DNA from: a virus
Length of the DNA stretch: 64,000 bases
Virus record (IMG/VR): IMGVR_UViG_3300027867_000003
Location: 20,798-84,797 of that record
Reading direction: 5' to 3' (one strand)
Below are positions 16,452 to 63,743 of the stretch, piece after piece. Position numbers and translations under genes: made by a program. Numbering within the stretch: position 1 is the first letter of the stretch; each line of letters opens with the position of its first letter. The notes beneath the pieces were generated by a model. That model had not been told where the DNA came from. It made no database searches and saw nothing but the letters and a program-made list of their open reading frames with translations.

Positions 16452-16696
16452 TGTCCATCTTCACCCGACGCCACTACATCTGGCTCGCCGAAGTCGGTCG
16501 ACAGATGATCGCCGCCGACCTCGATCGAAGCTCTAAGATCGACAAATGTATCCAAGTCCTCGCAACGGCTCTCGAAGCCGAATCTCCCGCCTTCAACCAC
16601 GACAGATTCATGAAGGCCATTTACGACCCCTCGGTCGACCTTTCAACCTCTAACGAAATGGAAACGAGCGATGTCCGTTCCACAAAGAGCCGCTGA
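16451..16696 (+). CDS. Small protein, paralogue of 20047-20307
   Basis: An 81-residue protein starting MSIFTRRHYIWLAEVGRQ, with ESPAFNHDRFMKA near the end. The same pattern (MAIFSKRHY ... NPAFNADRFLKA) occurs in the gene at 20047, so the two are paralogues on either side of the CobS/CobT-like pair. Function unknown; the family recurs in phages. Confidence 0.7.
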   Translation: MSIFTRRHYIWLAEVGRQMIAADLDRSSKIDKCIQVLATALEAESPAFNHDRFMKAIYDPSVDLSTSNEMETSDVRSTKSR

Positions 16697-18371: not shown

Positions 18372-19708
18372 TGTCCAATCCTGCATCGCTCGCCCTCCGA
18401 AAACTAGCCGCGGTCCTCGACGACCTAAGCCCAGAGAACCAAGAGCCCGAGAACCAAGACCCCTGTGGGGATGAGAATAACGAAGATCAAAAAAAGGACT
18501 CCGAGGACGAAGGTGGCGCGAGTGATTCATCTGACTCGGATGGCGAAGACAGTGACGATGAAGATGACGGGGAGGATGATCCTGAGACTGATCCTGAGGC
18601 TTCAGACAACCCAACTGAAAGTTCGGCTAAAAGCCCCCCAACGGAAAAAAGCCCCCAACCATCAGCACCGACATCGAAACCTCTACCTCCTGCGCTCGAC
18701 CAACTCGTCGCCGCCATCATTCAGCGACCCGATGACCCCTCAGATTGTCCTCCTGATGGCCCGCTTCTCCTGATCGAACCCGAGAACGAGGAATATAAGA
18801 TCCGTGACAAATCAAAGGACCGCACCATCCGGGCCGAAGATGGCTTCAGAGAATTCCACATCGACAAACAGAAGCATCGTCAAATGCTCGACGACCTCCT
18901 GCCCGATTCTCATAGCCTCGTCTCTCGTCTCTCGGCTCGCCTCCAACGGTCGATCCAGGCCCTCCAGACCCGGAGTTGGCAGTTCGACCTCGATGACGGC
19001 CATCTCGACCCAAGTAGATTGGCTCGCATAGTCGCCAGTCCCCTAAGTCCTGTAGCCTATAAACAGGAAAAAGAGGCTCTGTTCAAAGAAACCACCGTCA
19101 CTCTGTTAATCGACAACTCGGGCTCGATGGACCATGGTGGCAAAATCAATCTGGCCGCTACGACGGCCGACATCCTAACTCGCTGTCTCGAACGCTGCGG
19201 CGTCTCTGTCGAAGTCCTCGGCTTCACCGCCTCCGACAGCGGCAGACGACGCCATGTCCGTGGTCATCGTTGCAGCAGCCTCTTTCACATCATCTATAAA
19301 TCCGCCACCATTCCATATCGTCGAACCAAAGACAACTTCGGCTTCATCATTGCCTCAAAGCCTGTCGTTCAAAATGTCGACGGGGAGGCCCTCGTCTGGG
19401 CCTACAACCGCCTTATTCTCCGACCTCAGGAACGCAAAATCCTCATCGTTTTGTCGGACGGCGAGCCAGCCGACGGCTGCTCAGATTCCCGGCTTCTCGA
19501 CTCCCATCTCCGTCAGATGATCCGCGAGATCGAAAGTCGAAATCTCGTCGAACTCCTCGCCATCGGCCTCGGCCATAATGTGACCCAATACTATCGCCAC
19601 GCCATTATGATCCACGATTTCGCAACCCTTCCTACGGTCCTTCTTAACGAACTCCATCCCATGTTAACGAAGGTCCGAGACAAAAACCCGAAACGCCGTG
19701 CGGCCTAA
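18368..19708 (+). CDS. CobT-like VWA-domain protein
   Basis: A 446-residue protein overlapping the CobS-like gene by four bases. A long acidic Ser/Asp/Glu tract (about residues 25-75) precedes a helical linker and a C-terminal von Willebrand A domain with the metal-ion site LLIDNSGSMD (about 246-255), IVLSDGEPADG (about 357-368) and AIGLGHNV. This is the standard partner of CobS/MoxR ATPases. Cobalt chelation itself is unlikely since no cobalamin genes are nearby. A remodelling complex acting on host or virion proteins is the better inference. Confidence 0.85.
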   Translation: MMSNPASLALRKLAAVLDDLSPENQEPENQDPCGDENNEDQKKDSEDEGGASDSSDSDGEDSDDEDDGEDDPETDPEASDNPTESSAKSPPTEKSPQPSAPTSKPLPPALDQLVAAIIQRPDDPSDCPPDGPLLLIEPENEEYKIRDKSKDRTIRAEDGFREFHIDKQKHRQMLDDLLPDSHSLVSRLSARLQRSIQALQTRSWQFDLDDGHLDPSRLARIVASPLSPVAYKQEKEALFKETTVTLLIDNSGSMDHGGKINLAATTADILTRCLERCGVSVEVLGFTASDSGRRRHVRGHRCSSLFHIIYKSATIPYRRTKDNFGFIIASKPVVQNVDGEALVWAYNRLILRPQERKILIVLSDGEPADGCSDSRLLDSHLRQMIREIESRNLVELLAIGLGHNVTQYYRHAIMIHDFATLPTVLLNELHPMLTKVRDKNPKRRAA

Positions 19709-29990: not shown

Positions 29991-31415
29991 ATGTCTCGTG
30001 ATCTCGATCCCCGGAAAATCATAGTCCGAAATCGCCAACGGAAGGACCTCGGAAATCTGACATCCCTAGAGAACTCCATAAAGACCCGAGGCCAGATTCA
30101 TCCAATCGTCGTTCGAACCGAGCCCGATGATTCGATTGTCCTGATGGTCGGTGGCCGAAGGCTCCAGGCTTGCATCAATCTCGGCATCCCCGTCAAGGCC
30201 GACTTCTGGGACGACCTCGACGACACAACGGCCAAAGCCGTTGAACTAGAGGAAAACATAAAGCGAAGCGATCTGTCGTGGCGCGATCACGCCACAGCGG
30301 TCGGCGAACTCCATCAATTATACAAAGACACCCGCCCGGATTGGACTGTCCAGAAAACCGCAAGCGAAATTAGCATGGCCCCCAGCCAGATTCATCTAAT
30401 TCTCACCGTATTCAAGAACCTCGCTTCGCCCCTCTTGAACAATTCCCAGAGTCTCGACCAATCTTATTCAATCCTTCAGAACACAGCTGAACGCAAAACG
30501 GCCCAAATCGTCGCCGACATAATTTCAGCGAGCAAAGAGATCTTCGACTCAGCATCGAATTCACAGGAGAAAAACAATGAAAGAGACTCTATTGGCCCTG
30601 ACGGCAGGGATGATAGTGGGGTTAATAATGTCACCAATGGTCAAGGACTTATCAATTCAGAGAAGGATGATGCTGATAGCCATTCCAGCAATCTTAGCAG
30701 GAGTCTTAGTTCAACGTCTATATCACCCAAAATAATTCTGAATACCAATTTCCTCACCTGGGTCGCCAAATACAGCGGGCCTCAGTTCAACCTCATTCAC
30801 TGCGACTTCCCATATAGCATCCAATATGACAGCTATGCAAAATCCATCTCTAGCACAACCGAAGATTATGATTTCTCCGGCTTCTTCGACCTCCTCGACC
30901 CGCTCGTCGAAAACATCAATAAGATCGCCTCCTATTCATCGCACATCATGTTCTGGTTTTCTATGAAATTCTACGAACAAACGAAACAAAAACTCGAATC
31001 CAGTGGTCTCTATGTCCACGACCATCCCCTAATCTGGCACAAGACTGACAACGCCGGCATCATTCCGGGTAGAGACAATGCCTTTCCCCGCCGGGTCTAC
31101 GAGACAGCATTTCTATGTTCCCGTGGTCGAAGAACCCTCGTCAAATCTCTCTCAAATACCTATGGATGTCCAACATCCGATAAACCGATTCATCCCTCTC
31201 AGAAGCCCGAGCCGATGCTAAGGCACTTTTTCTCAATGCTCATAGACGAAACAACCGATTTCTTCGACCCCACCTGCGGCAGCGGCACTGCGCTCAGGGC
31301 CGCCGACGCCGTCGGAGCCCGCTCGGTCCTCGGTGTTGAAATCGACCCTGCTTACGCCGCCTCAGCCGAAAGCGCCTTCCAGACATCCTGGCTACTCCGA
31401 AAAGCAATAAGATGA
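29991..31415 (+). CDS. ParB-domain / DNA methyltransferase fusion
   Basis: A 474-residue protein. The N-terminal ParB-like part (about 1-170) shows KIIVRNRQRKDLGNLTSLEN, IVVRTEPDD and MVGGRRLQACINLG. A low-complexity Ser/Asn/Asp linker (about 190-245) follows. The C-terminal methyltransferase has motif IV HCDFPYS (DPPY-like) and the SAM-binding FFDPTCGSGTALRAAD near the end, with IHPSQKPEPMLRHF. It should methylate an amino group (N6-adenine or N4-cytosine), probably protecting phage DNA. Start ATG 29991 after GAAAGGACGAGAG. Confidence 0.85.
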   Translation: MSRDLDPRKIIVRNRQRKDLGNLTSLENSIKTRGQIHPIVVRTEPDDSIVLMVGGRRLQACINLGIPVKADFWDDLDDTTAKAVELEENIKRSDLSWRDHATAVGELHQLYKDTRPDWTVQKTASEISMAPSQIHLILTVFKNLASPLLNNSQSLDQSYSILQNTAERKTAQIVADIISASKEIFDSASNSQEKNNERDSIGPDGRDDSGVNNVTNGQGLINSEKDDADSHSSNLSRSLSSTSISPKIILNTNFLTWVAKYSGPQFNLIHCDFPYSIQYDSYAKSISSTTEDYDFSGFFDLLDPLVENINKIASYSSHIMFWFSMKFYEQTKQKLESSGLYVHDHPLIWHKTDNAGIIPGRDNAFPRRVYETAFLCSRGRRTLVKSLSNTYGCPTSDKPIHPSQKPEPMLRHFFSMLIDETTDFFDPTCGSGTALRAADAVGARSVLGVEIDPAYAASAESAFQTSWLLRKAIR

Positions 31416-32152
31416 ACGCTTATTACAACGAAATAGACACCTATTGTTCTAAATGGCTAGAACGGTTAATTTCGTCCAATGTGCTACCACAGGGCATAGT
31501 AGATAATAGAAGTATAATAATGGCTAACTATGTTAACTTAGGACTATTTAACCAATGCCATTTCTTTGCCGGAATTGGCGGATGGCCTCTAGCTTTGCGG
31601 ATGTCAAATTGGCCTAAAGACGAGCCCATTTGGACCGGAAGTTGCCCATGTCAACCGTTTTCTATAGCGAGCCCAAATCGGAGTAGAACAGCCGATGACC
31701 GACATCAATGGCCCAACTTCTTCCAACTCATCGAAAAGCATCGACCTTCAACAGTCTTTGGAGAGCAAGTTGCAGGAATGGATGGCCTGTCATGGTTCAC
31801 CGATATCAGGAATGACCTTGAAGGAATTGACTATGCTGTTGGGGCCGCGAATTTGCCAGCTATCGGGGCACCCCACAGGAGAAGCAGAATCTTCTGGGTG
31901 GCCCACTCCAGCCGCAAGAGATTGGAAGGACCTCTCTTTACGAGAGAAAGGTTATTCGTTGCAGCGCAGGAGGCATCAGCCTTCAACAGTCACCACGGCT
32001 TACGAACGCGGTTTAACGACAGCCCAAATCCCGCATCTACTCTGTCATATCATGGGATTTCCCGACCTATGGATATTGTGCGCGCCTTTGGAAACTCGAT
32101 AGTTCCTCAAACAGCTACAATATTCATAAACCTAATTACAGAATGCCTCTAA
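31412..32152 (+). CDS. C5 cytosine DNA methyltransferase
   Basis: A 246-residue protein. MNAYYNEIDTYCSKWLERLI is the typical phage start of this family; motif I is FFAGIGGWPLALRM, motif IV GSCPCQPFS holds the catalytic Cys, GEQV corresponds to the ENV motif, GAPHRRSRIFWVA to motif VIII, and AFGNSIVPQ to motif X. It overlaps the preceding methylase by four bases. The middle target-recognition part is short for the family. An out-of-frame ORF (31695-32102) overlaps its second half. Confidence 0.88.
   Translation: MNAYYNEIDTYCSKWLERLISSNVLPQGIVDNRSIIMANYVNLGLFNQCHFFAGIGGWPLALRMSNWPKDEPIWTGSCPCQPFSIASPNRSRTADDRHQWPNFFQLIEKHRPSTVFGEQVAGMDGLSWFTDIRNDLEGIDYAVGAANLPAIGAPHRRSRIFWVAHSSRKRLEGPLFTRERLFVAAQEASAFNSHHGLRTRFNDSPNPASTLSYHGISRPMDIVRAFGNSIVPQTATIFINLITECL
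31695..32102 (+). CDS. Out-of-frame ORF inside the cytosine methylase gene, 135 aa
   Basis: In the +1-shifted register the same DNA encodes MTDINGPTSSNSSKSIDLQQ, GMTLKELTMLLGPRICQLSG, ESSGWPTPAARDWKDLS and HIMGFPDLWILCAPLETR. I recall a common phage protein type with LTWK..., WPTPTARD... and MGFPxEWxxCAPTET; here that pattern is the alternate frame of the methylase motifs GAPH...FWVA and AFGNSIVPQ. GGAG lies about 11 bases before ATG 31695. Either a true overlapping gene or a recurrent by-product of methylase coding constraints. Confidence 0.4.
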   Translation: MTDINGPTSSNSSKSIDLQQSLESKLQEWMACHGSPISGMTLKELTMLLGPRICQLSGHPTGEAESSGWPTPAARDWKDLSLREKGYSLQRRRHQPSTVTTAYERGLTTAQIPHLLCHIMGFPDLWILCAPLETR

Positions 32153-49211: not shown

Positions 49212-51110
49212 TCAGTTATTATATTCACAGTCAAGCATAAACATGGGCGTTGAGTTCGATAGGTTTGCCGCCGCTAGTTGCTGCGCGCCTCGGGCCGATC
49301 CGTTTTCAACTGGTGTTATAACATTTGCCCCCGATGCGACATATCCACTAAAGCTAAGATAATTCGTGTCGAGCGTCAGGTTACTGACGAAGCCGAACGA
49401 GCATATCCCATAATCGCCACTCGCGCTATTGGCCAAGAATGGAAGTCCAGTAATCGTCAAATTTCCGGTCGGCGAAATGCTAGTGCCACTCACGTTCATT
49501 AGAACTCGTGCGCTGACGTGCCGCCCCATTTTCTCATAGTATCCGGTCTGATTAGCGTAGCTGAAGGTCCCGGCGGTGCCGCTGCCGACGATTGCCGCCG
49601 TCCATGTGCCGGTCAGGAACCCATCGGTATCATTCAATATCGTCTTATGTTGGCCTGTACCGCCGTCGCTAATCGGCGTCGTCGCGCCGTTCAGGTTGTT
49701 GTTCGCGATCGTGTAGTAATCGCTCGCTCCAGACGCAACTGAGACGCCCACCAAGTTCGTCCCCCACGCCGCCGACGCACTGAGGTCGTTACCGGCAATA
49801 GTGAAGTCAGTGATGCCTGCCGCTATCCCGACTCCGGCCACACCCGAACCGGCAACATGATTCCCCGTCAATACCGACTTCGTTCCAGCCCCAAGCGAGA
49901 TGCCGGTTTCGTTGTCGATAATAAGGTTTCCCGTCGCAATCAGGCTGTTACTCCAAGAGCCTGTCGTCGAAATCCCCGCGCAGGTCGAGAGGACGCAATT
50001 GCTTATATTGGAGCCTACCACCTGCAATCCAGACCCATCATGGGCTAGAACATTGGCTGTCAGTCCTTCGCCAAGAGATGACTGAGCGATCGTAGCCTGA
50101 CTAGGTGCCGTCCCGGCGCCGGTGTTCGTCATGGTGAAGCCCGCAGTAAAGGCTCCCGTCATATCGGATGCTATAATTTCAGTTGGCCCGCTCGCCCCCG
50201 TATCGAGTTGGAGTCCGTAGAACGTCGCCGGCGCCATCAGCTTCCAAGTGACCGAACCGTCAACGATAGACGCGCCGTAGTTCAGCAGCGTAGGCGCGCT
50301 GCCGCCGCTCGTTCCCCCCGCCGTCGCTTGAATATAGAACCCACCTAGCGAAACGATGTTACCGGCCAAGTACGAATGAGTGGAGGCCCAAGCAGAGATG
50401 GAAGAAATTGACCCTGGAGAAGGCACCGCATAGGGGTAAAGTTGATCCAATTTGGATTGTAGGATATTAGCCTGGCCGGTTATGTAGACCAGAGCCGATC
50501 CGTATGTGTTGAAGACGGTCGTCTGCGTGACCGTATTGTTGACCCCCATGACGTTTATTCCGTAGTGTCCCCCTTCGATGTTCGTATCCCGTACTATGCA
50601 CAGCACGCATGATGCGCCGATAACAACAGCGTCATGCGTCGTCGTAAGTACCTGAGAACCAAGAATCGCTAGCCCCTGGATGACATCGTAATTCTGGTTC
50701 AACGTCACAATAGTCGTATCGGCGCCGCAACTATCCAGGACCGCCGGTCCATTTACGCTGAGCTTTTGTCCGCTTCCCGGACCTTTGAAGATGACGGCAT
50801 AGGTCGTAACGGAAAGGCCACTCTTAATGCAGAAATCTCCAGGTGGAAAGAGTACCGTACCGCCGCTGCTGCCGAGCGAGTTGATTGCAGCCTGAACCGC
50901 CGATGACACATCGGCGGTTCCGTTACCCTTGGCGCCATAGTCGAGCACATCAGCCACTTCGGCAAACCGATTTGCCAGCGTCCGCGGCGTCGTGCTACCT
51001 GTAGATTGAATCGTTCCAGGAAACGTACCACTAAGATCTTGCCCATGAGCAGAAGACAACGACAGAAGAAAAGCAACTAATATTGCAGTCAACGTAGGGA
51101 GTTTTTTCAT
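49212..51110 (-). CDS. Pectate-lyase-fold tail spike/fibre with signal peptide
   Basis: A 632-residue protein. Residues about 1-24 (MKKLPTLTAILVAFLLSLSS) form a Sec signal peptide. VADVLDYGAKGNGTADVSSA and SGGTVLFPPGDF are the opening of the pectate_lyase_3 beta-helix typical of tail spikes, and repeated Asn/Gly turns (HDAVVIGASC, NNTVTQTTVFN) continue the helix. The C-terminal 110 residues resemble a small trimerisation domain. Tail spikes cleave or bind host polysaccharide. A signal peptide on a virion protein is unusual. Confidence 0.82.
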   Translation of the reverse strand: MKKLPTLTAILVAFLLSLSSAHGQDLSGTFPGTIQSTGSTTPRTLANRFAEVADVLDYGAKGNGTADVSSAVQAAINSLGSSGGTVLFPPGDFCIKSGLSVTTYAVIFKGPGSGQKLSVNGPAVLDSCGADTTIVTLNQNYDVIQGLAILGSQVLTTTHDAVVIGASCVLCIVRDTNIEGGHYGINVMGVNNTVTQTTVFNTYGSALVYITGQANILQSKLDQLYPYAVPSPGSISSISAWASTHSYLAGNIVSLGGFYIQATAGGTSGGSAPTLLNYGASIVDGSVTWKLMAPATFYGLQLDTGASGPTEIIASDMTGAFTAGFTMTNTGAGTAPSQATIAQSSLGEGLTANVLAHDGSGLQVVGSNISNCVLSTCAGISTTGSWSNSLIATGNLIIDNETGISLGAGTKSVLTGNHVAGSGVAGVGIAAGITDFTIAGNDLSASAAWGTNLVGVSVASGASDYYTIANNNLNGATTPISDGGTGQHKTILNDTDGFLTGTWTAAIVGSGTAGTFSYANQTGYYEKMGRHVSARVLMNVSGTSISPTGNLTITGLPFLANSASGDYGICSFGFVSNLTLDTNYLSFSGYVASGANVITPVENGSARGAQQLAAANLSNSTPMFMLDCEYNN

Positions 51111-51122
51111 CACACAGAGTCT

Positions 51123-53082: not shown

Positions 53083-54087
53083 CTAAAGCGTCCATGCCGG
53101 GATTGCATAGTCAGCGCCATTTATAACGACTGGGAGCCAAAAGGACGGACCAGCACCCCCCGGTGTCGCCCAAGCAGCAGGCACTCCCGCCGTTGAGTCA
53201 CTAACCTGGTTCGAAAACATAAGGCCATTATTAGTCGTTATAATCGCCCCAGCATTAAAAGTCGCGAGTGCATTATGAGTTGTTGTCGATCCAATGGTCG
53301 TAATTCCAGTCGTTATCGTCAGGCCGGAGGAAATCGTCACCACGCCCGTTGATCGAACAATCTCAATCGGCGTCGATAAGTAAATTCCATTATCCCCATA
53401 GGCGTCGATAGAGAAATTGCTTCCTGCATTAGAGCCCGATTCCGCCGTATTATCCTTCTTAATATCCCATCGACTAGAGCCGGTGTTTTGAAATACGTAA
53501 TAGGCTGATTGTCCGCTAGGAGCATTGGAATATAATGCTGAATCTGTTGCCGCAGGAGCAGTCATCGTAATGTTTCCCGCGGCCGTGATAGAGCCGGTTG
53601 CCAAGGTCCCTGTTAGGGACGTTATTCCCGAGACTGTGAGATTATTGGAACAGAGGACCGCTCCGGTTGCCGTTAGGGTCGAGAGCGTTGTTGCCCCCGT
53701 GCAACCGAGGGTTCCTACTGAAATAGTTCCTCCAGTTATATTAACATTATTGGCATTCTGTGATGCCATTGTTCCAAAGGTCGTCTGAGCCGCCGTTACA
53801 TTGTCAACGGTCCATATGGGGGCCGAGGGCGGATCAGTGTCGCCGGGGGGAGATAAGACAAATTTGATCGCAGTCCCCGGCGGCACAAAGATCCCCTGCG
53901 GCGCAGTTCCGAGGGAATCAAGGATAATCGGATTCGCGTTCGCAGTATTCCCCGTCGCATCAGTATATGTGTTTGTTTTGGTCGTCGTCCCACCCTGATA
54001 GGAAAATAAAAGCCCTCCGCTGAGAGGTTTTCCATTTATATCGAGAAATTGAATTAGTGGAATCGGGCTGATGACGACCGTGGGCAT
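53083..54087 (-). CDS. Tail fibre protein with conserved N-terminal domain
   Basis: A 334-residue protein. IQFLDINGKPLSGGLLFSYQ, then TDATGNTANANPIILDSLGT and GIFVPPGTAIKFVL, are the standard phage fibre N-terminal adaptor that attaches fibres to the tail. The remainder has VTGxxSLTGTL-type beta repeats. GAGGACC precedes ATG 54087. Confidence 0.82.
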   Translation of the reverse strand: MPTVVISPIPLIQFLDINGKPLSGGLLFSYQGGTTTKTNTYTDATGNTANANPIILDSLGTAPQGIFVPPGTAIKFVLSPPGDTDPPSAPIWTVDNVTAAQTTFGTMASQNANNVNITGGTISVGTLGCTGATTLSTLTATGAVLCSNNLTVSGITSLTGTLATGSITAAGNITMTAPAATDSALYSNAPSGQSAYYVFQNTGSSRWDIKKDNTAESGSNAGSNFSIDAYGDNGIYLSTPIEIVRSTGVVTISSGLTITTGITTIGSTTTHNALATFNAGAIITTNNGLMFSNQVSDSTAGVPAAWATPGGAGPSFWLPVVINGADYAIPAWTL

Positions 54088-54556: not shown

Positions 54557-55891
54557 TCACGGCCTCATCTGCACCAGATAGCCGAATTCATGCAGCTTTG
54601 GCAAGGCTTTAATGACTTTCTCTCCAATGTCCGTTCGATATATTTTGTCACTCAATTTGATTTGGTCGATAAATCCATAGACCTTATCGCGGGCCTTTGT
54701 TATTCCTTTTCCGAGAGCCGTCGCCACAGCTACATATTCCCCCGTTGTCTGATACTGAGGCCCATAGACGATCTTTCCGTCTTTCATCTCAGGACCTCGG
54801 TCTATCATGGCCGAGACGAGATGAATGTCGGTCCCAGGCGGGGGGTTCTCAATTCCCCGAATCGGATTGCCGAGAACCAGATTCTCGGGGGAATTCTCAT
54901 AGGGGTATCGGGGTTGGGAGATCACGACCCCAATAGCCGTATCATAGGAGACTTTGAGACTGTCTTTTCCGTCCAATAGATCATTCATCCATTTAATCGG
55001 ATCGCCCCGATGGCTTGCGACCTGAATGTGAAAGGCTGGCCAACCACATCTCGACGTAAATTCGAGGGGCCACGTCTTTCCCTTTTTGTCAACAATGGCG
55101 CCGATTGAAAAATCGCCCCGATGACCCAAGGACCGAAGAATTGGTTCCATTGGAAGCAGCATCTCTCCAGCGAGCATATCGTCTTCGACATATTGGCAAA
55201 TTGTGCCCTGTTCTCCTGTCGCAGGGCCTATTTCTCCGTCCATAAGTTTTTTGTGCTCAATACATGTCTGCCACTTGTGTTCGAGAAACCCGTCCTTTCC
55301 CATCCATCCACTAACGCCGATCTCGCAAATGGCGTCGATCTTTTCTTGGAGAATACATTTTCCCTTAAGCTGTTTCCCACCCTTAATCTGCCGTTCGAGC
55401 CAACCGACCAAATCCGCCGGATCATCTGCGACATAGGTCAGCGATTTATCGGATTCGTCTCCGAGGGGCTTGAAGACAAATGGTCGATCCTGCTTTCGGG
55501 CAAATCGATAGCATTCTTCCAGAGAAGCGAACTCGTGATATTCAGGAAGGTCGATCCCGACTGCTCTCATGGCCTCCATGCCGGCCCCACGGTCGATTTC
55601 CAATTTGGCCGATTGAACTGTTGGGCCAAAGACCTTGATGCCCATCTCTCGACAACGGTCCAATTCATGGAGGAAACGAAAATTGCCCGTCGTCAGGATG
55701 AAACCGCCGTCTTTGACCCATTCGAGGCTGCTTCGCCAATCGTCGATGATCTTAAATTGTTTCATTCCGAGGCCGGATTTCAGATCATGTCCTGGGCAAT
55801 ATCTGAACCACCGGACCTCATGTCCGACGTCTCCGGCTCTCATTGCAAGATCGAGAGCCTGACACTCGCTATCGACGATCAATAGCCTCAT
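54557..55891 (-). CDS. PurD-like ATP-grasp ligase
   Basis: A 444-residue protein resembling phosphoribosylamine-glycine ligase. Visible parts: MRLLIVDSECQALDLAMRAG (N-domain), VFGPTVQSAKLEIDRGAGME (opening of the ATP-grasp fold), RPFVFKPLGDESDKSLTYVA (ATP-binding Lys strand), CILQEKIDAICEIGVSGWMG and WPLEFTSRCGWPAFHI (metal/adenine end). It lies among virion genes, not among nucleotide-synthesis genes. ATP-grasp enzymes join an acid to an amine; a peptide-like or base modification is possible, the substrate is unknown. Confidence 0.8.
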   Translation of the reverse strand: MRLLIVDSECQALDLAMRAGDVGHEVRWFRYCPGHDLKSGLGMKQFKIIDDWRSSLEWVKDGGFILTTGNFRFLHELDRCREMGIKVFGPTVQSAKLEIDRGAGMEAMRAVGIDLPEYHEFASLEECYRFARKQDRPFVFKPLGDESDKSLTYVADDPADLVGWLERQIKGGKQLKGKCILQEKIDAICEIGVSGWMGKDGFLEHKWQTCIEHKKLMDGEIGPATGEQGTICQYVEDDMLAGEMLLPMEPILRSLGHRGDFSIGAIVDKKGKTWPLEFTSRCGWPAFHIQVASHRGDPIKWMNDLLDGKDSLKVSYDTAIGVVISQPRYPYENSPENLVLGNPIRGIENPPPGTDIHLVSAMIDRGPEMKDGKIVYGPQYQTTGEYVAVATALGKGITKARDKVYGFIDQIKLSDKIYRTDIGEKVIKALPKLHEFGYLVQMRP

Positions 55892-56262
55892 CGCGAATCA
55901 TAATGCTCCATATTGAGCCAGGTTGCTAAAAGATATTCCACTATGAGGGCTTTTCTGTGTTGGTCGAAATAGGGCGCCCGGGGATCTTCCCCCGGTTCAC
56001 CCGGGCCTTTGAACTGTGCGTCGAATTCATCGACCGATTCTTGGGGAACTCCCTCCTTTCGACACAGTTTCATTTCGACGATTTCGTGAATGGCGACCAA
56101 AAAGGCTTGGTCATCGTCAAGAGGATCTGTGCCAACGATTACAACCCGAGTATTGCCGTCGTCATCGACATACCAATCGCCCAATGACTCGGGGTCATTG
56201 CAATATGGAAATCGCATCGAAGAGGGAGATTCAACGGACTCTATGATGATCTTTCGACTCAT
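55888..56262 (-). CDS. HExxE-type putative metalloprotein, 124 aa
   Basis: MSRKIIIESVESPSSMRFPY, then IHEIVEMKLCRKEGVPQES, a His-Glu...Glu helix as in small phage zincin-like proteins, and a later DQHRKALIVEYLLATWLNME helix. ATG 56262 overlaps the preceding stop; TTG 56277 is weaker. Activity is not established. Confidence 0.6.
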   Translation of the reverse strand: MSRKIIIESVESPSSMRFPYCNDPESLGDWYVDDDGNTRVVIVGTDPLDDDQAFLVAIHEIVEMKLCRKEGVPQESVDEFDAQFKGPGEPGEDPRAPYFDQHRKALIVEYLLATWLNMEHYDSR

Positions 56263-59200
56263 TGAATTGGAGTCCAATCCGACGATAGGCGGCTCTGAGG
56301 TTGTTGGGATGGAACAGTTGTCATGTAGTCAACTCCGGCCCCGATGTTTCGTAGATTGTTAGTTGGCATCGATGATCTGGGCGTCATCAATTGATTTACA
56401 TCTGGTGACAGACTTATATTTGGATTCGAGAATTCCCTAAGGAGGCTATTTGCGGTTCCCTGGCGCATGAAACTACCCCCTAGGGCCTGCCTAGCAGTTG
56501 GGGAATAAATGGCTCGAATGGCCCAATAGGGCCACGACCACCACGAATGGCCTAGATGAACTGCAATTTGGGCCAAATCATAGCCTATATCACGGCCAGG
56601 CATGTTCTCTAATGGAAGTCCCAATTTCCTTTTTGCCTGATCTATAAAAGCTACGCTTCGTCTTATCATCTCGGCTTCATTATCAAGCTGCCTCATAGCT
56701 GCTTGGGCTTCGCCTTGAGTCGGATATAGAGCCTCAAACAGTTCTCGTTTATTTGGCGTGTCAGAGACTTTGCCAATTCTCCCTTCGCCTGACTTCATTG
56801 ACTGTGCCTCAGTATAGGCGGCACCGCGACGATACAATTCTTTATCTAACTCAATTGGAAGAGCATTTATTTGACGTCGAACCACATGAGGATTTTGACT
56901 AAAGGCTCTTTGTCCGGCCTGAAGCGCCTGTTGCGCGCGAAGTGCTGACTCTAGGTCGTTCGTAAGAGCACCCGTTTCTGTCTTTAAGCGTGCTTCTATC
57001 TCTTTTGGAAGAGAGCTAAGTCTAGAATTTGCATCTCTTAAATCTTTCTCTATCTCTCCTCGCCTCTTGTCTAAATATTCTCCGTGCCTTTCGAGACTTT
57101 TCTTCCGAGCTGCATAGGCTATTTCGTCTTCTTTCGTCAAAGGAATAGCCTTCCCCCAAGGTTCTTTGATTTTTGCTTTGTTTTCTGCAATCTGTCTCTT
57201 AATAATATCTAGGTTAGCTTGGTTCTTAGTTAATTCATTGTTAATCGTAGCCGATCGATTAGAGAACTCCTTATTAACCCGCGCAGTTTTATCAATAATA
57301 GTCTTTTCAGCTGCTCTCGCGGTCTCGCGGAGATTGTCTTCGATTTCAGGCACATTGCTAGTCCCAAATTTGCTCTCTATCAAATCTCGATTGCCTAAAG
57401 TATCAATTGCTGCTTCGCGTCTAGAAAGTGCTCCTCTATAAGGAACTGGGGGTGACACCCCATCAGGTCGTATGCCCTCCATACGACCTTCTAACTCATG
57501 TACGAACTCCATTATGTGTTCCGGGGATGCCTTGTTTAACGCTTGTACGGCAAGCTGATTTATGGGGCCTACGTGTTTACCAATGTCTAGAAGAGTCATA
57601 GGGGAGCCAACGGCTTGACTTCGTTCAAGAGTCTCCCTAGAAGTCTCATCTCGCATAGGATTAGAAACAGACATTTCATCAGAATAGGCTCTATTGATGC
57701 GACCAGCAATCGGATCATTGGCAAAGGGAGCGAGGCGATTGTAGAGGCCCCGAATTGGCGCGGTGGCGGCCCGTGCAGGAAGTGCCAAGGCGTTTGCTGT
57801 CAATTCTGGCGCCATTGCTCCCGCTATGGGCAAACCGATGTCGGTCCCTAATTCTGTTATATATCGAATTGCATTTCTCGTCGGCTGGCTAAGGCCCATT
57901 TCGTTCTCAAGGTCTGCCGCGGCTGAGCCGATCCAGCGCCCCGGAGCCGACAGAGCATTCTCAATTGACTGGCCTATTGGCCCTGTTGGAATTTGAGTTG
58001 CCCCCAAAAGGGCGTTCCGGCCCTGTTCCCAATCAGCCATCGATGGCTTGGGTCCCCCTCCCACCCAACGGCCTAATTGACCACCGGCTGAGGCAACGTC
58101 GGCAATCGGGGCGCGAATGGGATAGGACGCTACATTGGCAAACGGGGCAAGTTCATTTAGCGAAAATCCCCCCATTGATGGGGCATTCATGGCTCCTTGG
58201 GCCACATTTTGCCAAAAGCTAGGTGGCTGGGGCGGGGTTGGGACATCGACTGGCGATCCAAAGTTGATTCCACTGGAGGGACCCGGTTGCGTAGTAGGCG
58301 GTGCTGTAACAGGGGTGCCAAATTGGGGCTCTGCCGCCTGAGCCGAGGAAATAGGATTTAGGGACGACAATAATGAGAGGAAGGAGTTTTGATTCGGAGC
58401 GGCTGCACTGGGAGACGGAAGTCCCACGTTTCCAGCTGCTAGATTATTCGCCCCCGCGATCCTTTGACCGGCTGTTACGTTGTCCGCGGGCGATGGAACA
58501 TTGACTCCACGATACGCCTGGGCCGACGGGTTGATAATGTCCTTATTTATCCCCGCCACGATCTCGGGGTAGAAATCAGGCTTTCCGGTTGCTGTCGGAG
58601 CCGGGGCGGTTGGAATCGGCTGTTGGGGAGGTTGGTCAAAAACTGTCGGTTGAGGCCCTGTAGGCGGCTGGGGCGCCGCTGCCATTCTGGCCTGCATTGC
58701 CTCAGCTTCGCGACCAGGACCGCCAGTGGCAAATGCTCCTGGAACAATGTTCCGCGCGATCGAAGCTGCGTCTAACGGTGGGGGCTTTGGGACTTGGGGA
58801 AATTTGTAATCGAGGGCCTTTTTATTCGTCCCGACGATTTTGTCATAAATGGCATTAGGATCAGCTCCACGGATTGCCACCGGGATCGAGGGAATTCCCT
58901 CGTCTATGGCCGCCTGGGCCCGATTTCGCCCATCATAGTCAACGACGTTGAGACTGTTTCCCGAGGGACTGACTTCGAGGCTCGGAATTGCCTGAATACC
59001 TTCCCCCCGGTCGAGCGACTGCATTAAATTCGCCCGCTTTAGCGAAGTCGAATCATCGTTTTCTATTTTTGGCAACAGAGAAAGATAGTCCTCGGGTGCC
59101 ATATGCCTCACATCGACGTTACTTCTATTTTGCTCTGATGCAATTGATTCGGAGGTTGGAACCCATTTCATTCCAATTGCAGCAGCTAATTGGGGATTAT

Positions 59201-59810
59201 AATTGGCCCACGGTGAAAATCCCTCTGCCTTAAATGCTGCATCAAAGACCTTCCGCTGTGACTCGGGACTGAAATCCTTTATCCCTAGTTCTGTGGCATA
59301 TTTGTGCCAAGTTCCGGGTTCGAATTGATATAGACCTGCGGCGTGACTTATACCCCTAGGACCTTTGTTCCCGTTCCAGATTGGAAAACCTGTTTCGTCC
59401 AAAGGAGCTTTACTGAGATCGGCCCCACCGTATCCTGCATAAGGATTTCCAGCACTTTCGAAGTGGCTAACCATCCCCGCAGCTTCACCGGGAGAATAAT
59501 CCTTTAGAGGCTTTTTGTCCTTATGGGGCGCCACATTCAAGTGAAGTGCGGGGCGATCTTCGTGAGGGGCTTGGTAATAGCCCTCAGGAATCGGCCATGC
59601 TGACGGCGGCCCCCATCCCGGTGGAGTTGACATAATATTTGGAAGCCCACCGGGACGCGGAATTTCCTGTCCTGGTGTTTGCCCGGTCGTTATAGTGCCA
59701 CCTGCGCCTCGAGGCCTGACCTTTCGCGGATCGAAGACTTCCTCTGAGGGCAGATTTGGAAGCCGATTGCCTCCTGGGGTGTCGATTGGATCTCCAAACG
59801 AAATAGGCAT
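56259..59810 (-). CDS. Large ejection protein with lysozyme-like and ParB-like domains
   Basis: An 1183-residue virion protein. The SLT/lysozyme-like part (about residues 110-215) has MVSHFESAGNPYAGYG with the catalytic Glu and GLYQFEPGTWHKYATELG. It is followed by a ParB-like segment (MAPEDYLSLLPKIENDD, VVDYDGRNRAQAAIDEGIPS). Long Pro/Gln/Ala-rich linkers and a helical C-terminus (coiled coil about 860-960) complete it. Such proteins are ejected with the DNA and degrade peptidoglycan during entry. ATG 59810 overlaps the upstream stop (TAATG); the TTG extension was not used. Confidence 0.8.
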   Translation of the reverse strand: MPISFGDPIDTPGGNRLPNLPSEEVFDPRKVRPRGAGGTITTGQTPGQEIPRPGGLPNIMSTPPGWGPPSAWPIPEGYYQAPHEDRPALHLNVAPHKDKKPLKDYSPGEAAGMVSHFESAGNPYAGYGGADLSKAPLDETGFPIWNGNKGPRGISHAAGLYQFEPGTWHKYATELGIKDFSPESQRKVFDAAFKAEGFSPWANYNPQLAAAIGMKWVPTSESIASEQNRSNVDVRHMAPEDYLSLLPKIENDDSTSLKRANLMQSLDRGEGIQAIPSLEVSPSGNSLNVVDYDGRNRAQAAIDEGIPSIPVAIRGADPNAIYDKIVGTNKKALDYKFPQVPKPPPLDAASIARNIVPGAFATGGPGREAEAMQARMAAAPQPPTGPQPTVFDQPPQQPIPTAPAPTATGKPDFYPEIVAGINKDIINPSAQAYRGVNVPSPADNVTAGQRIAGANNLAAGNVGLPSPSAAAPNQNSFLSLLSSLNPISSAQAAEPQFGTPVTAPPTTQPGPSSGINFGSPVDVPTPPQPPSFWQNVAQGAMNAPSMGGFSLNELAPFANVASYPIRAPIADVASAGGQLGRWVGGGPKPSMADWEQGRNALLGATQIPTGPIGQSIENALSAPGRWIGSAAADLENEMGLSQPTRNAIRYITELGTDIGLPIAGAMAPELTANALALPARAATAPIRGLYNRLAPFANDPIAGRINRAYSDEMSVSNPMRDETSRETLERSQAVGSPMTLLDIGKHVGPINQLAVQALNKASPEHIMEFVHELEGRMEGIRPDGVSPPVPYRGALSRREAAIDTLGNRDLIESKFGTSNVPEIEDNLRETARAAEKTIIDKTARVNKEFSNRSATINNELTKNQANLDIIKRQIAENKAKIKEPWGKAIPLTKEDEIAYAARKKSLERHGEYLDKRRGEIEKDLRDANSRLSSLPKEIEARLKTETGALTNDLESALRAQQALQAGQRAFSQNPHVVRRQINALPIELDKELYRRGAAYTEAQSMKSGEGRIGKVSDTPNKRELFEALYPTQGEAQAAMRQLDNEAEMIRRSVAFIDQAKRKLGLPLENMPGRDIGYDLAQIAVHLGHSWWSWPYWAIRAIYSPTARQALGGSFMRQGTANSLLREFSNPNISLSPDVNQLMTPRSSMPTNNLRNIGAGVDYMTTVPSQQPQSRLSSDWTPIQ

Positions 59811-61759
59811 TACTGTTGCTGCCAATCTTGGGGATTACTGGGATTTCCACCGGGCCGCAATTTCCATTTCGTTATATTGCCATTAGAATCGATCTCTGTT
59901 CCGTATCCGTCTCCGAAGGGATAAATCTTGCCGGGCGTTTTGCCTTTCATGGAAGATGCAATTTCGTCCATAGTATGACCACCGAACTTATCCTGGGGTT
60001 TCTGGTCCTGATTTCTCTGTCTGTCTGTCGGTCGTTCCAGATTCTCAATTCTCTTTCGCGTTGAATTAAATTCATTATCAATAGAGTCGATCCTATTCTG
60101 CATACTGATTTTCATCGACGCAATAGCCGATTTCAATTGCTCCGGTGTCTGAGCCTTGTTTATAAGTCCCTCAGCTTCGCGCCGCGCAGTATCGGAAGTC
60201 TGGCCACCCGTGGCTCCTGGACTTGACATAATTCTGGCATATTCGTTTTTGAGCGAAGTGATTGCTGCATTGAAGGCAACAACGTCAGGATCACCCGTTA
60301 CATTGGTCCTTCCAGCCTGAATCCAGCGATTTAGGACTGGAATTCCTGACTGAGCGGTGCCTTCGACGGGTTTAGTTCCTACGAGAGACTTCAATTCTAG
60401 TGGGGCATTTGGATCATCTTGCATTGATTTTAGGCGATCCTGAACGGCCTTTGATCCAATCCCGCCCTCAGCCAACTCCAATGTTAAATCGGCCTCCTTG
60501 TTAGCCGTCTGTTCGAAGTTCGAGACGTTGGCTCGCAATTTGCCCAATTGAACTGCGGCGGCAAAATCGGCTCTACCAGCCGCGTGAAGTCCGATAACTT
60601 GGGCGGGAGATAAATTGTATTCTCCGGCAATCTGCCCAGCCCTATTTAGAACCCTGACTCTCTCCTGAGGTCCCCAACCAAGAGCTGGAACTTGCCCTGT
60701 CACGAGATAGTTCGTTGCCGCGATGTCGAGAGCCTCCCCAGATAACGGCTCCGATTTGGCAATCCGAACTTTCGACGGATCGATATTTTGGTTCGTATTG
60801 GCATCGACAACCCGGCCATCAGGAAATCTATAAACCCCCGCCTCCGCCCAAGTTCCGTCGGGCTGTTGAACCTGCGCTGTCTGGGGCGCTGGCATCGGAC
60901 GCTCGACAGCGGCTGGCCGGGTTGAAAGCGGAGTCAGATTTCCCGACGGAGTTCCCGGCTGTCCCGTGGCCCTATCGACAAACGCTGTTGGCCCGGTTCG
61001 AACCCATTGTTTTCCAGAAGCGTCTGTAAATATGGGGGCCTCGCTCGACTTAAATCCCCCTGTCGTGGCCTCAACAGATCCCGTGGGGAGGGCAACAGTC
61101 TTGCCCGACGAATCCCCTAGAACCCGAGCTTGGTTATTATATCTATTTACTTCATAGGTCTGACCATTTGGGCCGGTCATTATACGGGCATTTTCCCACC
61201 CTTTGGCGACGTTCCCTTGGCGGGATTCCCACAAAGGTCCCATAGTTTGGAGGGACTTCGGGTTCCCGATAAATGGATCAAATCGATTGACAATTTGATC
61301 TGGCATTCCACTGACTGCAACGGCTCGATTCTTTATCTCAGTCAATTTCTGTTGAAGCAATTGATCCCGGTTGGGCAAATTGGGGTCGAGGGAATCAGCA
61401 TATTCCTTGAATGGCTTATAAATGTCATCATAGGCAACGTTGCCCCAATAGTCAATGACCTTGGCACTGTTGACCTGGGCTTGCTGTTGCTGCTGTTGGA
61501 TCTTCCCCAGGGCCTCATAGGTATCTAGGGCCGTCTGTGGACTTGCTTGCCACACAGAGGCCATTCCTGACATTTGGGGCATTCCGGTCGTCGGATTAAT
61601 CGGGACGCTACGGAGGGCATTTATCCCAGCTTCATTCTGCTGCAACTTGAGGGCATTCTGCCGCGCAATCAACTGTTCGTTCTGTGTCTGAGCCTGACGA
61701 AGGGCATTTTGCTGGAGTTGCTCAGGAAACGTCGCAATGAGTTGATTGACATCAGCCAT
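59810..61759 (-). CDS. Ejection/internal virion protein, 649 aa
   Basis: Gln/Ala/Asn-rich N-terminus (MADVNQLIATFPEQLQQNAL), long helical body with beta stretches (QTYEVNRYNNQARVLGD), and a C-terminal charged region. Composition and position, between two other ejection proteins, match internal core proteins of podoviruses. No enzymatic motif was seen. AGGAT precedes the ATG. Confidence 0.7.
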   Translation of the reverse strand: MADVNQLIATFPEQLQQNALRQAQTQNEQLIARQNALKLQQNEAGINALRSVPINPTTGMPQMSGMASVWQASPQTALDTYEALGKIQQQQQQAQVNSAKVIDYWGNVAYDDIYKPFKEYADSLDPNLPNRDQLLQQKLTEIKNRAVAVSGMPDQIVNRFDPFIGNPKSLQTMGPLWESRQGNVAKGWENARIMTGPNGQTYEVNRYNNQARVLGDSSGKTVALPTGSVEATTGGFKSSEAPIFTDASGKQWVRTGPTAFVDRATGQPGTPSGNLTPLSTRPAAVERPMPAPQTAQVQQPDGTWAEAGVYRFPDGRVVDANTNQNIDPSKVRIAKSEPLSGEALDIAATNYLVTGQVPALGWGPQERVRVLNRAGQIAGEYNLSPAQVIGLHAAGRADFAAAVQLGKLRANVSNFEQTANKEADLTLELAEGGIGSKAVQDRLKSMQDDPNAPLELKSLVGTKPVEGTAQSGIPVLNRWIQAGRTNVTGDPDVVAFNAAITSLKNEYARIMSSPGATGGQTSDTARREAEGLINKAQTPEQLKSAIASMKISMQNRIDSIDNEFNSTRKRIENLERPTDRQRNQDQKPQDKFGGHTMDEIASSMKGKTPGKIYPFGDGYGTEIDSNGNITKWKLRPGGNPSNPQDWQQQ

Positions 61760-61767
61760 GATTTATC

Positions 61768-62691
61768 CTAATACACTCCACCGGAGGCTGGATTATATCC
61801 CCCTGAAATTGGTGTGTTGCTACCAGCACTAAAGTCTTGGTTAAACAGACCCTGGAACAGACTGCTTAGATTATTTGTTCCTGAACTGCCACTTCCTAGA
61901 AGGCCCTGTAGGATATTCGACAAGCCTCCATATTGCCCGAGAATTCCTGCGGCATTGGCCTGTCCGATCCCAGCGAAGGCGTTTCCGATTCCCGATATGA
62001 GACTCGACTGAGGTCCGGTGAGTGTCGCGGCCTGTTGACCCCCAGTCGAAATGCCGCCGAGCCGATTGACAATGTTCTGCTGTTCCGCTGCGGCTCCCTG
62101 GATTTGATTCCAATAGTTCTGATTATTCGCCGACCACTGAGTGTTGTATTGGTTCTGATAATTGTTGAGCCAATTATACCAGTCTTGATTAGCTAGGCCG
62201 GTTCCATATTTCTGAAGAGCCTGGAGCGTATTGCCAGATAGAACTCCTTGCGTCGGTCCTGAGGCATTTTGGATCGCATTGACGCCCTGCGATAATTGGT
62301 ATTGATAACCCGGCGATGCTTGAAATTGATTGATCGTCGGCGTCGGCATATTATACGGTGTCGGGGCTCCTGCGAGGGGAATTCCGAGATAGTTGGTCGA
62401 GAACTGAGACGGACTTTCCAGTCCTGCGCCCCACCCCGGAGTTCCCATTTGAGCAGCGTTATTCGGACCAGGTAGCCCGAGGAACGTATCCAGTTGGTTG
62501 AGGGCCGCAGTGCCGCTATTATACCACGGGGCCAGTTGTTGACTAAATGCCTGTAAGATGCTTTGCTCGAAGCCAATTTGTTTATTGAGGGCATTAGTTT
62601 CGGCAGAGGCAGCGTTCGATGAGCCAAGGCAACCAAGCGCCCCGCTTCCCAAGGACCCCGCGCCCGCTAATGCTCCGCCAATCCAAGGCAC
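61768..62691 (-). CDS. DNA-ejection protein (gp7-like), 307 aa
   Basis: Gly/Ser/Ala-rich hydrophobic start (WIGGALAGAGSLGSGALG), then SPGYQYQLSQGVNAIQNASG, a segment I recognise from podoviral ejection proteins, and Gln/Asn-rich helices (YNWLNNYQNQYNTQW). It likely helps form the channel for DNA entry. Start is GTG 62691 with only a weak ribosome site. Confidence 0.72.
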   Translation of the reverse strand: MPWIGGALAGAGSLGSGALGCLGSSNAASAETNALNKQIGFEQSILQAFSQQLAPWYNSGTAALNQLDTFLGLPGPNNAAQMGTPGWGAGLESPSQFSTNYLGIPLAGAPTPYNMPTPTINQFQASPGYQYQLSQGVNAIQNASGPTQGVLSGNTLQALQKYGTGLANQDWYNWLNNYQNQYNTQWSANNQNYWNQIQGAAAEQQNIVNRLGGISTGGQQAATLTGPQSSLISGIGNAFAGIGQANAAGILGQYGGLSNILQGLLGSGSSGTNNLSSLFQGLFNQDFSAGSNTPISGGYNPASGGVY

Positions 62692-62697
62692 TTCTAT

Positions 62698-63156
62698 TTA
62701 CCTCAGCTTAATTTCAAACATTGTCTGGCGGGGAATTCCCCCGAATAACTGAATGAATCGACTCATTGAGGCATCATGCTGGGGATCGCCCGTTATAAAG
62801 AAATGTGGATAGGCATAGTCGATATTCAGAGAACGGAGAATTCGAAGGCCCTCTGACATAAGTCGTCGCCCGATGTCGGATTTCCGATACTCGGGCCGGA
62901 CGTACCAGGCACTTTGGAGAGCAATCTTGGCCTTCATTATGAGGGCATTCATCAAGGTCCAACCGAGGTAGCCAACCAGATTTTGGTTGTCCCAGGCCCC
63001 TAAGATAATCATGTTGCCTGCTTTATCGGCCTCCTGAATAGCCGGGAAATTGGGGTCGAATTCCCCTGAGCAACCAAGTTCCTCAAAGTGGCTTTTCATC
63101 ATATCGAGGCAATCAGGAAACAGGTCGCCCCAGTGACATTGGCGAACTAGAGCCAA
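62698..63156 (-). CDS. GNAT-family acetyltransferase
   Basis: A 152-residue protein. ALQSAWYVRPEYRKSDIGRR contains the GNAT acetyl-CoA pattern (V-x-P-x-x-R...G-R-R-L), with a preceding beta strand (NLVGYLGWTLM). Start TTG 63156 with GAGGAAT upstream. GNATs of this kind occur beside structural genes in podoviruses; the acceptor is unknown. Confidence 0.78.
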   Translation of the reverse strand: MALVRQCHWGDLFPDCLDMMKSHFEELGCSGEFDPNFPAIQEADKAGNMIILGAWDNQNLVGYLGWTLMNALIMKAKIALQSAWYVRPEYRKSDIGRRLMSEGLRILRSLNIDYAYPHFFITGDPQHDASMSRFIQLFGGIPRQTMFEIKLR

Positions 63157-63743
63157 CTTGCAGATTCCTCAAGACCGCGCGCCCGAAGCTCGGATACTCG
63201 ACGAGCAATGTCCCAGATGAGGGCGGCCGAATTCCGGACATTCTGTTCAACGTTTTTTCGAATCTCAGGCGCCGGGACTTGGATATTTCGATCCATCGAT
63301 TTGTCCCAACTTTCATCGGGAATTCGACCCGTGAGATATTCGGCCACATTGAACCGGATCATCTTAGAACTGAGGGATCGTTTTGAGATCGAGAGAACTC
63401 CTGATTCATTCCACGCCAACGAGGAAATCATAAGATCTTGGGCTAATAGAAAGGGCCAATCGGCCTCCAGACCAATCTGATTAAATGAGGCTCCGATTTC
63501 GTAGACCGGACGACTGAGGGTCCCAAACTTAGTCTCGGGAAAAAGATTCCTCAGAACCTCATAACCTAGGACCAATGATGTCTCAACAGTTCCATCATAT
63601 CCTGTGGTTCGAGAAACAAATTCATCGAGAGTCTTGCAGCCCATTGATAAATCGTGGCCGACCTTCTGGTCCCCGAAACTGAGATATTGGCTGAGCCACT
63701 TCGACTGACTTCGCGGCTGGCTCATAATGAGAAATTTCAACAT
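63147..63743 (-). CDS. Sulfotransferase-like protein, 198 aa
   Basis: MLKFLIMSQPRSQSKWLSQY matches the N-terminal strand-loop of PAPS sulfotransferases (PRSGTTWL), and FGTLSRPVYEIGASFNQ resembles the later Arg-Pro motif. Residues between vary. The protein may sulfate or bind a small substrate; several phages carry such genes next to a GNAT, as here. Overlaps the GNAT gene. Confidence 0.55.
   Translation of the reverse strand: MLKFLIMSQPRSQSKWLSQYLSFGDQKVGHDLSMGCKTLDEFVSRTTGYDGTVETSLVLGYEVLRNLFPETKFGTLSRPVYEIGASFNQIGLEADWPFLLAQDLMISSLAWNESGVLSISKRSLSSKMIRFNVAEYLTGRIPDESWDKSMDRNIQVPAPEIRKNVEQNVRNSAALIWDIARRVSELRARGLEESASWL

Follow-up and report, generated by a model that had tools for sequence, protein, structure and literature searches.

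PurD contacts ATP through Lys103, Lys143, Glu185, Glu192 and Lys214, its metals through Glu100 and Lys214, and glycine through Asp212, Arg287 and Glu292, as given in the active-site passages of PMC8880213. Viral purD/GART genes have been reported as purine genes in the relevant parts of surveys (PMC11360552, PMC11097641). In 2011, two haloarchaeal copies, Hlac_1553 and rrnAC0307, were judged not to be GAR synthetases, and the passage on them in PMC3261824 describes the loss of GARS_N and of the PS00184 Asp. The ligase studied here shares both losses. The haloarchaeal family found in our searches shows the same losses and is matched to these two proteins by the features described in that passage, not by locus tag. 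The haloarchaeal PurD-like proteins are cellular and patchy, whereas the phage clade is separate and lies in a virion module.

Phages also encode other predicted peptide- or amide-forming ligases, the ATP-grasp/amidoligase/GATase cassettes of phiEco32 and LUZ24-like phages. In the sections of PMC10580990 and PMC3890496 that describe them, these cassettes differ from the ligase studied here in that their ATP-grasp protein is shorter (UFV-P2: 291 aa), that they are early genes and that an amidotransferase goes with them; no GATase_6 was detected in our record. A search for the amidoligase PF12224 gave no match in the record, nor in any control genome. The R2K ligases of phages are likewise ATP-grasp enzymes and are predicted to modify proteins in infection. 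They are set apart by their descriptions, which in the parts concerned (PMC4431377, PMC7824862) place them sporadically in jumbo and other phages and not in an ejection/tail block. For the phage ligase family described below, no publication was found in the open-licence literature, preprints excluded.

The window that we analysed, 64,000 nucleotides in length, comprises bases 20798-84797 of an 84,797-base IMG/VR record, which may itself be a fragment. The record also encodes a P22-like portal, a terminase, PolA and two DNA methylases. Both the ligase and the late block around it are on the minus strand, where the genes follow each other in this order:

63147..63743, minus strand: sulfotransferase-like protein, a weak assignment (PF17784, E 0.006, below cut-off; phrog_38824, 7e-4, of unknown function)
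62698..63156, minus strand: GNAT acetyltransferase in a variable enzyme slot (PF00583, 3.6e-7, 30.9 bits, cut-off 20.7)
61768..62691, minus strand: P22 gp7-like DNA ejection protein (by membership of cluster 1)
59810..61759, minus strand: second ejection-type protein (cluster 6, by synteny)
56259..59825, minus strand: large ejection-type virion protein (by position and phrog_90, E 6e-4; no Pfam domain above cut-off)
55888..56277, minus strand: small HExxE...H protein of the A6 family, 129 codons, likely start at 56262 (family alignment, model)
54557..55891, minus strand: PurD-like ATP-grasp ligase, 444 aa (Pfam, TIGR00877, tree, model, residues)
53083..54087, minus strand: tail fibre-type protein downstream of the ligase (phrog_29706 tail spike, 9e-6; its place matches that of the fibre-type genes of relatives)
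49212..51113, minus strand: pectate-lyase-like tail spike (PF12708, 5e-9; phrog_2234 tail spike, 1e-9)

The existence of the ligase ORF (ATG start, 444 codons) was confirmed. It overlaps the preceding ORF by four bases (ATGA), with the ligase start inside the stop codon of that gene. Selection on the ligase is strongly purifying, and the gene is conserved far beyond chance, as the median dN/dS is 0.052 over 200 close, non-independent pairs from 48 relatives. Among the neighbours, the gp7-like cluster includes a member, L031, that matches phrog_598 (DNA ejection) at 1.7e-45, and the product of 56259..59825 contains a weak endolysin-like stretch at residues 156-193.

The ligase has the fold of PurD, but it is not PurD. 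In Pfam, GARS_C matched above cut-off (6.2e-9) and GARS_A below it (4e-4), and no GARS_N was detected. The purD model TIGR00877 matched with 1.4e-23 and 83.4 bits, not reaching its equivalog cut-off of 288 bits. An AlphaFold2 model built from 64 relatives had a pLDDT of 95.5. All of the top 15 Foldseek rows for this model were PurD, as were the top 13 VIA rows (Z 32.0-35.2, with the next families at about 24), and the ATP-grasp fold spans the full length of the protein in both model and structure comparison. When the family profile was compared with PDB sequences, PurD came first, followed by carbamoyl-phosphate synthase just under E 0.001. PHROGs and PADLOC gave no match for the ligase, and no close viral relative was present in BFVD, where the best Foldseek TMq was 0.47 and the matches were ATP-grasp proteins in general. 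With PurD (TIGR00877; 2YW2, 2QK4, 1GSO) the ligase has in common the whole-length fold, the ATP-site Lys/Glu, the metal Glu, the catalytic Arg and the C-terminal R-x-D-I-G motif. Identity is about 20%, and the GGREH motif, the second Gly of TGGMG, the PS00184 GDPE, the metal Asn and the glycine-binding Glu are altered. In a tree of sequences thinned at 75% identity to 77 rows, PurD (10 rows, 100/100) and the phage clade (22 rows, 96/93) were separate, with 45 cellular rows beside the phage clade. The branches splitting PurD from the rest measured 1.9 and 2.1 changes per column.

For the active-site residues we aligned 277 proteins, including 156 of the phage clade, 80 cellular relatives, 24 viral PurDs and 10 of 11 cellular PurDs (L007 failed the motif filter and was left out; L301, the same gene as L025, was left out of the residue and second-set counts). 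The E. coli equivalents of the published contacts were taken as K105, K145, E187, E194, K216, D214, R290, E295 and E102, with constant offsets of 2 or 3. All 156 phage-clade proteins carry E98, R101, K141, Q182, E212, K214, E227, E277, T279 and R281, among which K141, K214, E98, E277 and R281 are ATP/Mg residues of the ATP-grasp superfamily; E190 is present in 155, with one D. At the PurD positions K105, K145, E187, E194, K216, D214, R290 and E102, the phage clade thus reads R, K, Q, E, K, E, R and E. Two further changes, G229 to E227 and N288 to T279, are absolute (156/156). In contrast, K105, K145, E187, D214, G229, E286, N288, R290 and E295 are kept in 10/10 cellular PurDs and in all aligned rows of the 24 viral PurDs, of which two or three short ones are gapped at some sites. 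At the glycine contacts, the window ligase has Glu for Asp, a kept Arg and Ala for Glu. At the E295 site the five commonest phage-clade residues are L (64), A (51; also the residue of the window ligase), I (21), Y (5) and D (4 of 156), so a few members may keep an acid there. At E. coli D293, E295 and N288, which belong to the PS00184-type R-[FL]-G-D-P-E motif and the metal Asn, the window ligase has W284, A286 and T279, and the GGREH motif of the PRA site in the N-domain is absent from the family. The cellular relatives all share E212 and E227, and 79/80 have T279. Among the viral sequences, seven are of the cellular type; in these E212 and T279 are constant, and E227 is present in four and replaced by Q in three.

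The first-pass annotation had described a full-length PurD-like ligase among virion genes, which the ORF, the GARS_C and TIGR00877 matches and the ATGA overlap confirm. It had also doubted a plain purine gene, and here the separate clade and the altered substrate-site residues agree with it: neither does the tree place the ligase inside the PurD clade, nor do the residues show an intact PRA/glycine pocket. Its statement that other purine genes are lacking holds for PurA and for the PurM/PurL domain AIRS_C, both of which were not found in the 84,797-base record.

The residue rules split all 156 phage-clade sequences from PurD and so define a viral enzyme family. Pfam-based pipelines can label this family purD and file it as a purine auxiliary gene. 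Genuine PurD occurs in viral contigs too, with at least 24 cases against at least 150 relatives of the ligase family, two numbers obtained with different patterns. All 24 cases found by the true-PurD pattern scan, itself a lower bound, were taken into the alignment. These IMG/VR contigs (L198-L221) encode a true-type PurD with the diagnostic residues intact where aligned, and they possibly carry genuine auxiliary genes.

A viral scan with the single ligase sequence retrieved no close relatives, and an alignment query was needed. The first such scan gave 150 relatives, a lower bound, from which the best 80 were taken in. In a collection of 50,697 phage records, one close full-length relative was listed, MW202796.1 from a spring (35.6% over 99%); the other 25 matches had 22-26% identity and covered at most 89% of the query. 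Thus, no cultivated phage with the ligase was found in this collection. A genome scan gave at least 554 relatives, and two of the best 80 taken in, L088 and L089, fall in the phage clade; L089, from Rhodanobacteraceae bacterium ZG21-1, is a candidate prophage.

The sister clades are patchy and come from haloarchaea, DPANN, CPR and proteobacteria. At E<=1e-60, the PurD-like gene was found in 36/97 genomes of the haloarchaeal class and in 14/100 of a DPANN phylum. Twenty carrier genomes were searched for a separate PurD, which was above cut-off in nine and not found in 11; GARS_N gave the same nine. Ten of the 11 carriers without PurD have genomes of 0.5-1.3 Mb, the eleventh (G002, 5.5 Mb) being odd, and since genome completeness is not stated, the absence of PurD says little about an individual genome. 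Across 80 cellular loci we found no common operon, only clade-wise partners. An MTS methyltransferase lies within 7 kb in 17/80 loci, the iron-containing redox enzyme PF14518 is a neighbour in 12/80, and SET and FemAB-like neighbours occur in a handful of loci, mostly of CPR/DPANN. Genes were called with a greedy longest-ORF script that is poor in GC-rich DNA and lost the family gene in one phage locus (L010) and 15 cellular loci. In the haloarchaeal genomes G026, G035, G058, G059, G071 and G108, the PurD-like genes are in pieces or contain internal stops, as if decaying or interrupted. Upstream of the Methylocystis copies (L091, L096, L099 and L121) are two genes read from their sequence as ethanolamine ammonia-lyase subunits, along with methyltransferase and iron-containing redox enzyme genes.

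In the phage loci, the ligase is near-core in late blocks, between the ejection genes and the tail fibre. The first-set counts cover 83/84 loci, with L010 lost in gene calling. The upstream gene was on the same strand as the ligase in 81/82 cases and the downstream gene in 78/79, and the upstream gap was exactly -4 in 57/82. Relatives have ejection-type proteins upstream and, downstream, tail-fibre proteins and then an endolysin, the fibre and endolysin labels coming from sequence reading and PHROG rows. A second set, retrieved with an archaeal-type query, showed the same block. Its upstream gene was on the same strand in 69/71 loci, and its downstream synteny is looser, with 56/71. In addition, we anchored a check on tail genes, so that loci were not chosen by the ligase itself, with profiles made from carriers and with loci that had at least 9.5 kb downstream (16/79 and 27/79), some contigs being shared with the first set. 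The ligase was present in 16/16 and 24/27 late blocks (40/43 in total). For L492, one of the three misses, the same contig as L033 is concerned, where the ligase lies just past the fetched flank.

The slot just before the gp7-like gene holds a candidate modifying enzyme in 44/51 readable loci of the first set, for which the sulfotransferase-like label of the window was entered by hand, and in 11/13 of the second set. In the tail-gene check, one of the slot enzymes was downstream in 16/16 and 24/27 blocks. The slot contains GNAT, Asp/Asn-hydroxylase-like, cupin or sulfotransferase-like genes, of which Pfam backs GNAT, Asp/Asn hydroxylase and cupin. The sulfotransferase-like label of cluster 21 is a motif reading for which Pfam gave nothing. 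Three loci counted as 'GNAT?' carry another small family, also with no Pfam match. The window GNAT matched the slot-GNAT profile at 3.8e-54, a profile that itself includes the window sequence. That the window sulfotransferase-like gene belongs to the slot family of other phages was also considered and failed (hhalign probability 3.8), with weak PHROG matches shared. These counts support the small set of late modifying enzymes, here still candidates, that the first-pass annotation had suspected; of the two it had named, the GNAT stands with its PF00583 score, and the sulfotransferase-like gene keeps a weak label.

In the family of the 129-codon gene, both the HExxE motif and a later His are invariant. 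Besides the window, the gene is present in 18/163 virus-side and prophage PurD-like loci. Among the best 80 of 241 matches in a viral scan for HExxE proteins, 36 were near the ligase, 18 near a second divergent family and 26 near neither; the first two numbers are biased upward by a query built from carriers, and a looser count of 42/80 near the ligase includes cross-hits to the second family. Further locus scans took in the best 80 of 125, 80 of 285 and 80 of 128. The model of the HExxE protein had a pLDDT of 93, and Foldseek returned 0 matches to solved folds at E<=0.001. The second family, of about 430 aa, aligned with the ligase family with an hhalign probability of 99.8 over 398 columns at 15% identity, and Pfam detected almost nothing in it. 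It too was seen beside the HExxE gene, and its loci are L321, L329, L334, L335, L338, L354-L356, L360, L367, L372, L373, L376 and L380. In cells, the HExxE gene was found in 1/80 loci, at 9279-9680 of L112 (Jorgensenbacteria, CPR), directly behind the PurD-like gene. This is the only HExxE/PurD-like pair outside phages that we found.

The ligase has thus retained its ATP side, whereas the sites for both substrates have been remodelled, from which we infer that acid and amine alike differ from those of PurD. The likeliest reading, which we hold at about even odds, is a catalytically competent ATP-grasp carboxylate-amine ligase, derived from a PurD-type ancestor, that has given up both substrates of PurD. 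As in PurD, ATP would phosphorylate a small carboxylic acid, and the acyl group would be passed to an amine. The acid would be held differently, by Glu in place of Asp at E. coli D214 and by the new Glu at G229, with E295 lost in nearly all members, and the acceptor would be an amine other than phosphoribosylamine. The carriers include many uncultivated P22-like viruses of bacteria, in which the enzyme probably makes an amide bond different from that of PurD.

Given the link of the gene with the ejection/fibre block and with further modifying enzymes, our guess is that a virion protein supplies the accepting amine. Late in infection, an ejection or tail-fibre protein might be the target, as a first guess. 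Its partners might be the neighbouring-slot enzyme (GNAT, hydroxylase, sulfotransferase-like or cupin) and, in the loci that have it, the small HExxE protein. We tentatively propose, at well under even odds, a modular virion modification. In it, the PurD-derived ligase, near-core in a large group of P22-like phages, would attach a small acid covalently to a protein of the ejection or tail apparatus. Some lineages would add an HExxE partner, and a fixed slot beside the gp7-like ejection gene would take an exchangeable second enzyme (GNAT, Asp/Asn hydroxylase, sulfotransferase-like or cupin). With a near-core ligase beside ejection genes, it would become possible to test whether virions of podovirus-type phages are modified covalently. 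Several observations weigh against the explanation favoured here. Lipid A or glycans, rather than proteins, may be what the slot enzymes act on; PF05118 also includes LpxO-type lipid A hydroxylases. The cellular neighbours (methyltransferase, iron-redox, SET, FemAB-like) fit small-molecule or protein chemistry equally. Finally, the HExxE gene is present in just 18/163 loci, and the downstream synteny of the second set is looser.

Envelope chemistry is the main rival, though we regard it as rather doubtful. Together with the slot enzymes, the ligase would modify LPS, peptidoglycan or capsule of the host, for example for superinfection exclusion or for the release of progeny from the receptor. 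The slot enzymes are Asp/Asn-hydroxylase-like, cupin, GNAT or sulfotransferase-like, several of these could act on glycolipids, and such a role is cited for the phiEco32 amidoligase and amidotransferase in the part of PMC10580990 that covers them. However, the ligase is near-core between ejection and fibre genes, whereas the ATP-grasp, amidoligase and amidotransferase genes of LUZ24-like UFV-P2 sit in the early block, as described in the genome section of PMC3890496. Moreover, no GATase_6 was found in the record.

It is unlikely that the product is a small polyamine- or peptide-like metabolite that enters the capsid along with the DNA or serves the infected cell. The cellular sisters keep the MTS methyltransferase (17/80) and the iron-containing redox enzyme (12/80), which resembles a biosynthetic pathway, but no such pathway genes were found in the phage blocks, and the position of the ligase is fixed in the virion module. 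Modification of nucleobases in virion DNA is more improbable still. Late expression would suit a post-replicative modification, and two methylases (ParB_N/N6_N4 and C5) are encoded in the window. Against this, no PurZ/PurA homologue was found, and the 20 window ORFs that were scanned contain no DNA-hypermodification gene set, the DNA methylases there being ordinary. That the gene is a plain PurD boosting purine synthesis as an auxiliary metabolic gene, as the same fold and the weak GARS matches might suggest, is most improbable and was rejected, being already contradicted by the score below the TIGR00877 cut-off, the diagnostic residues changed in 156/156, the separate clade, the lost GGREH motif of the PRA site and the true PurD that nine carrier genomes own besides.

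Three other regions of the window are worth recording. The ParB_N domain at 29991-32149 (plus strand) is fused to an N6/N4 DNA methylase, and a C5 cytosine methylase follows. At 16671-19705 (plus strand), an AAA_5 ATPase gene adjoins a CobT_C VWA gene, a MoxR/VWA-like pair in a phage. In the P22-like portal gene at 5-2620 (minus strand), the Pfam portal match is split in two and a LAGLIDADG-like domain covers residues 572-628, which is probably an intein or homing-endonuclease insertion.
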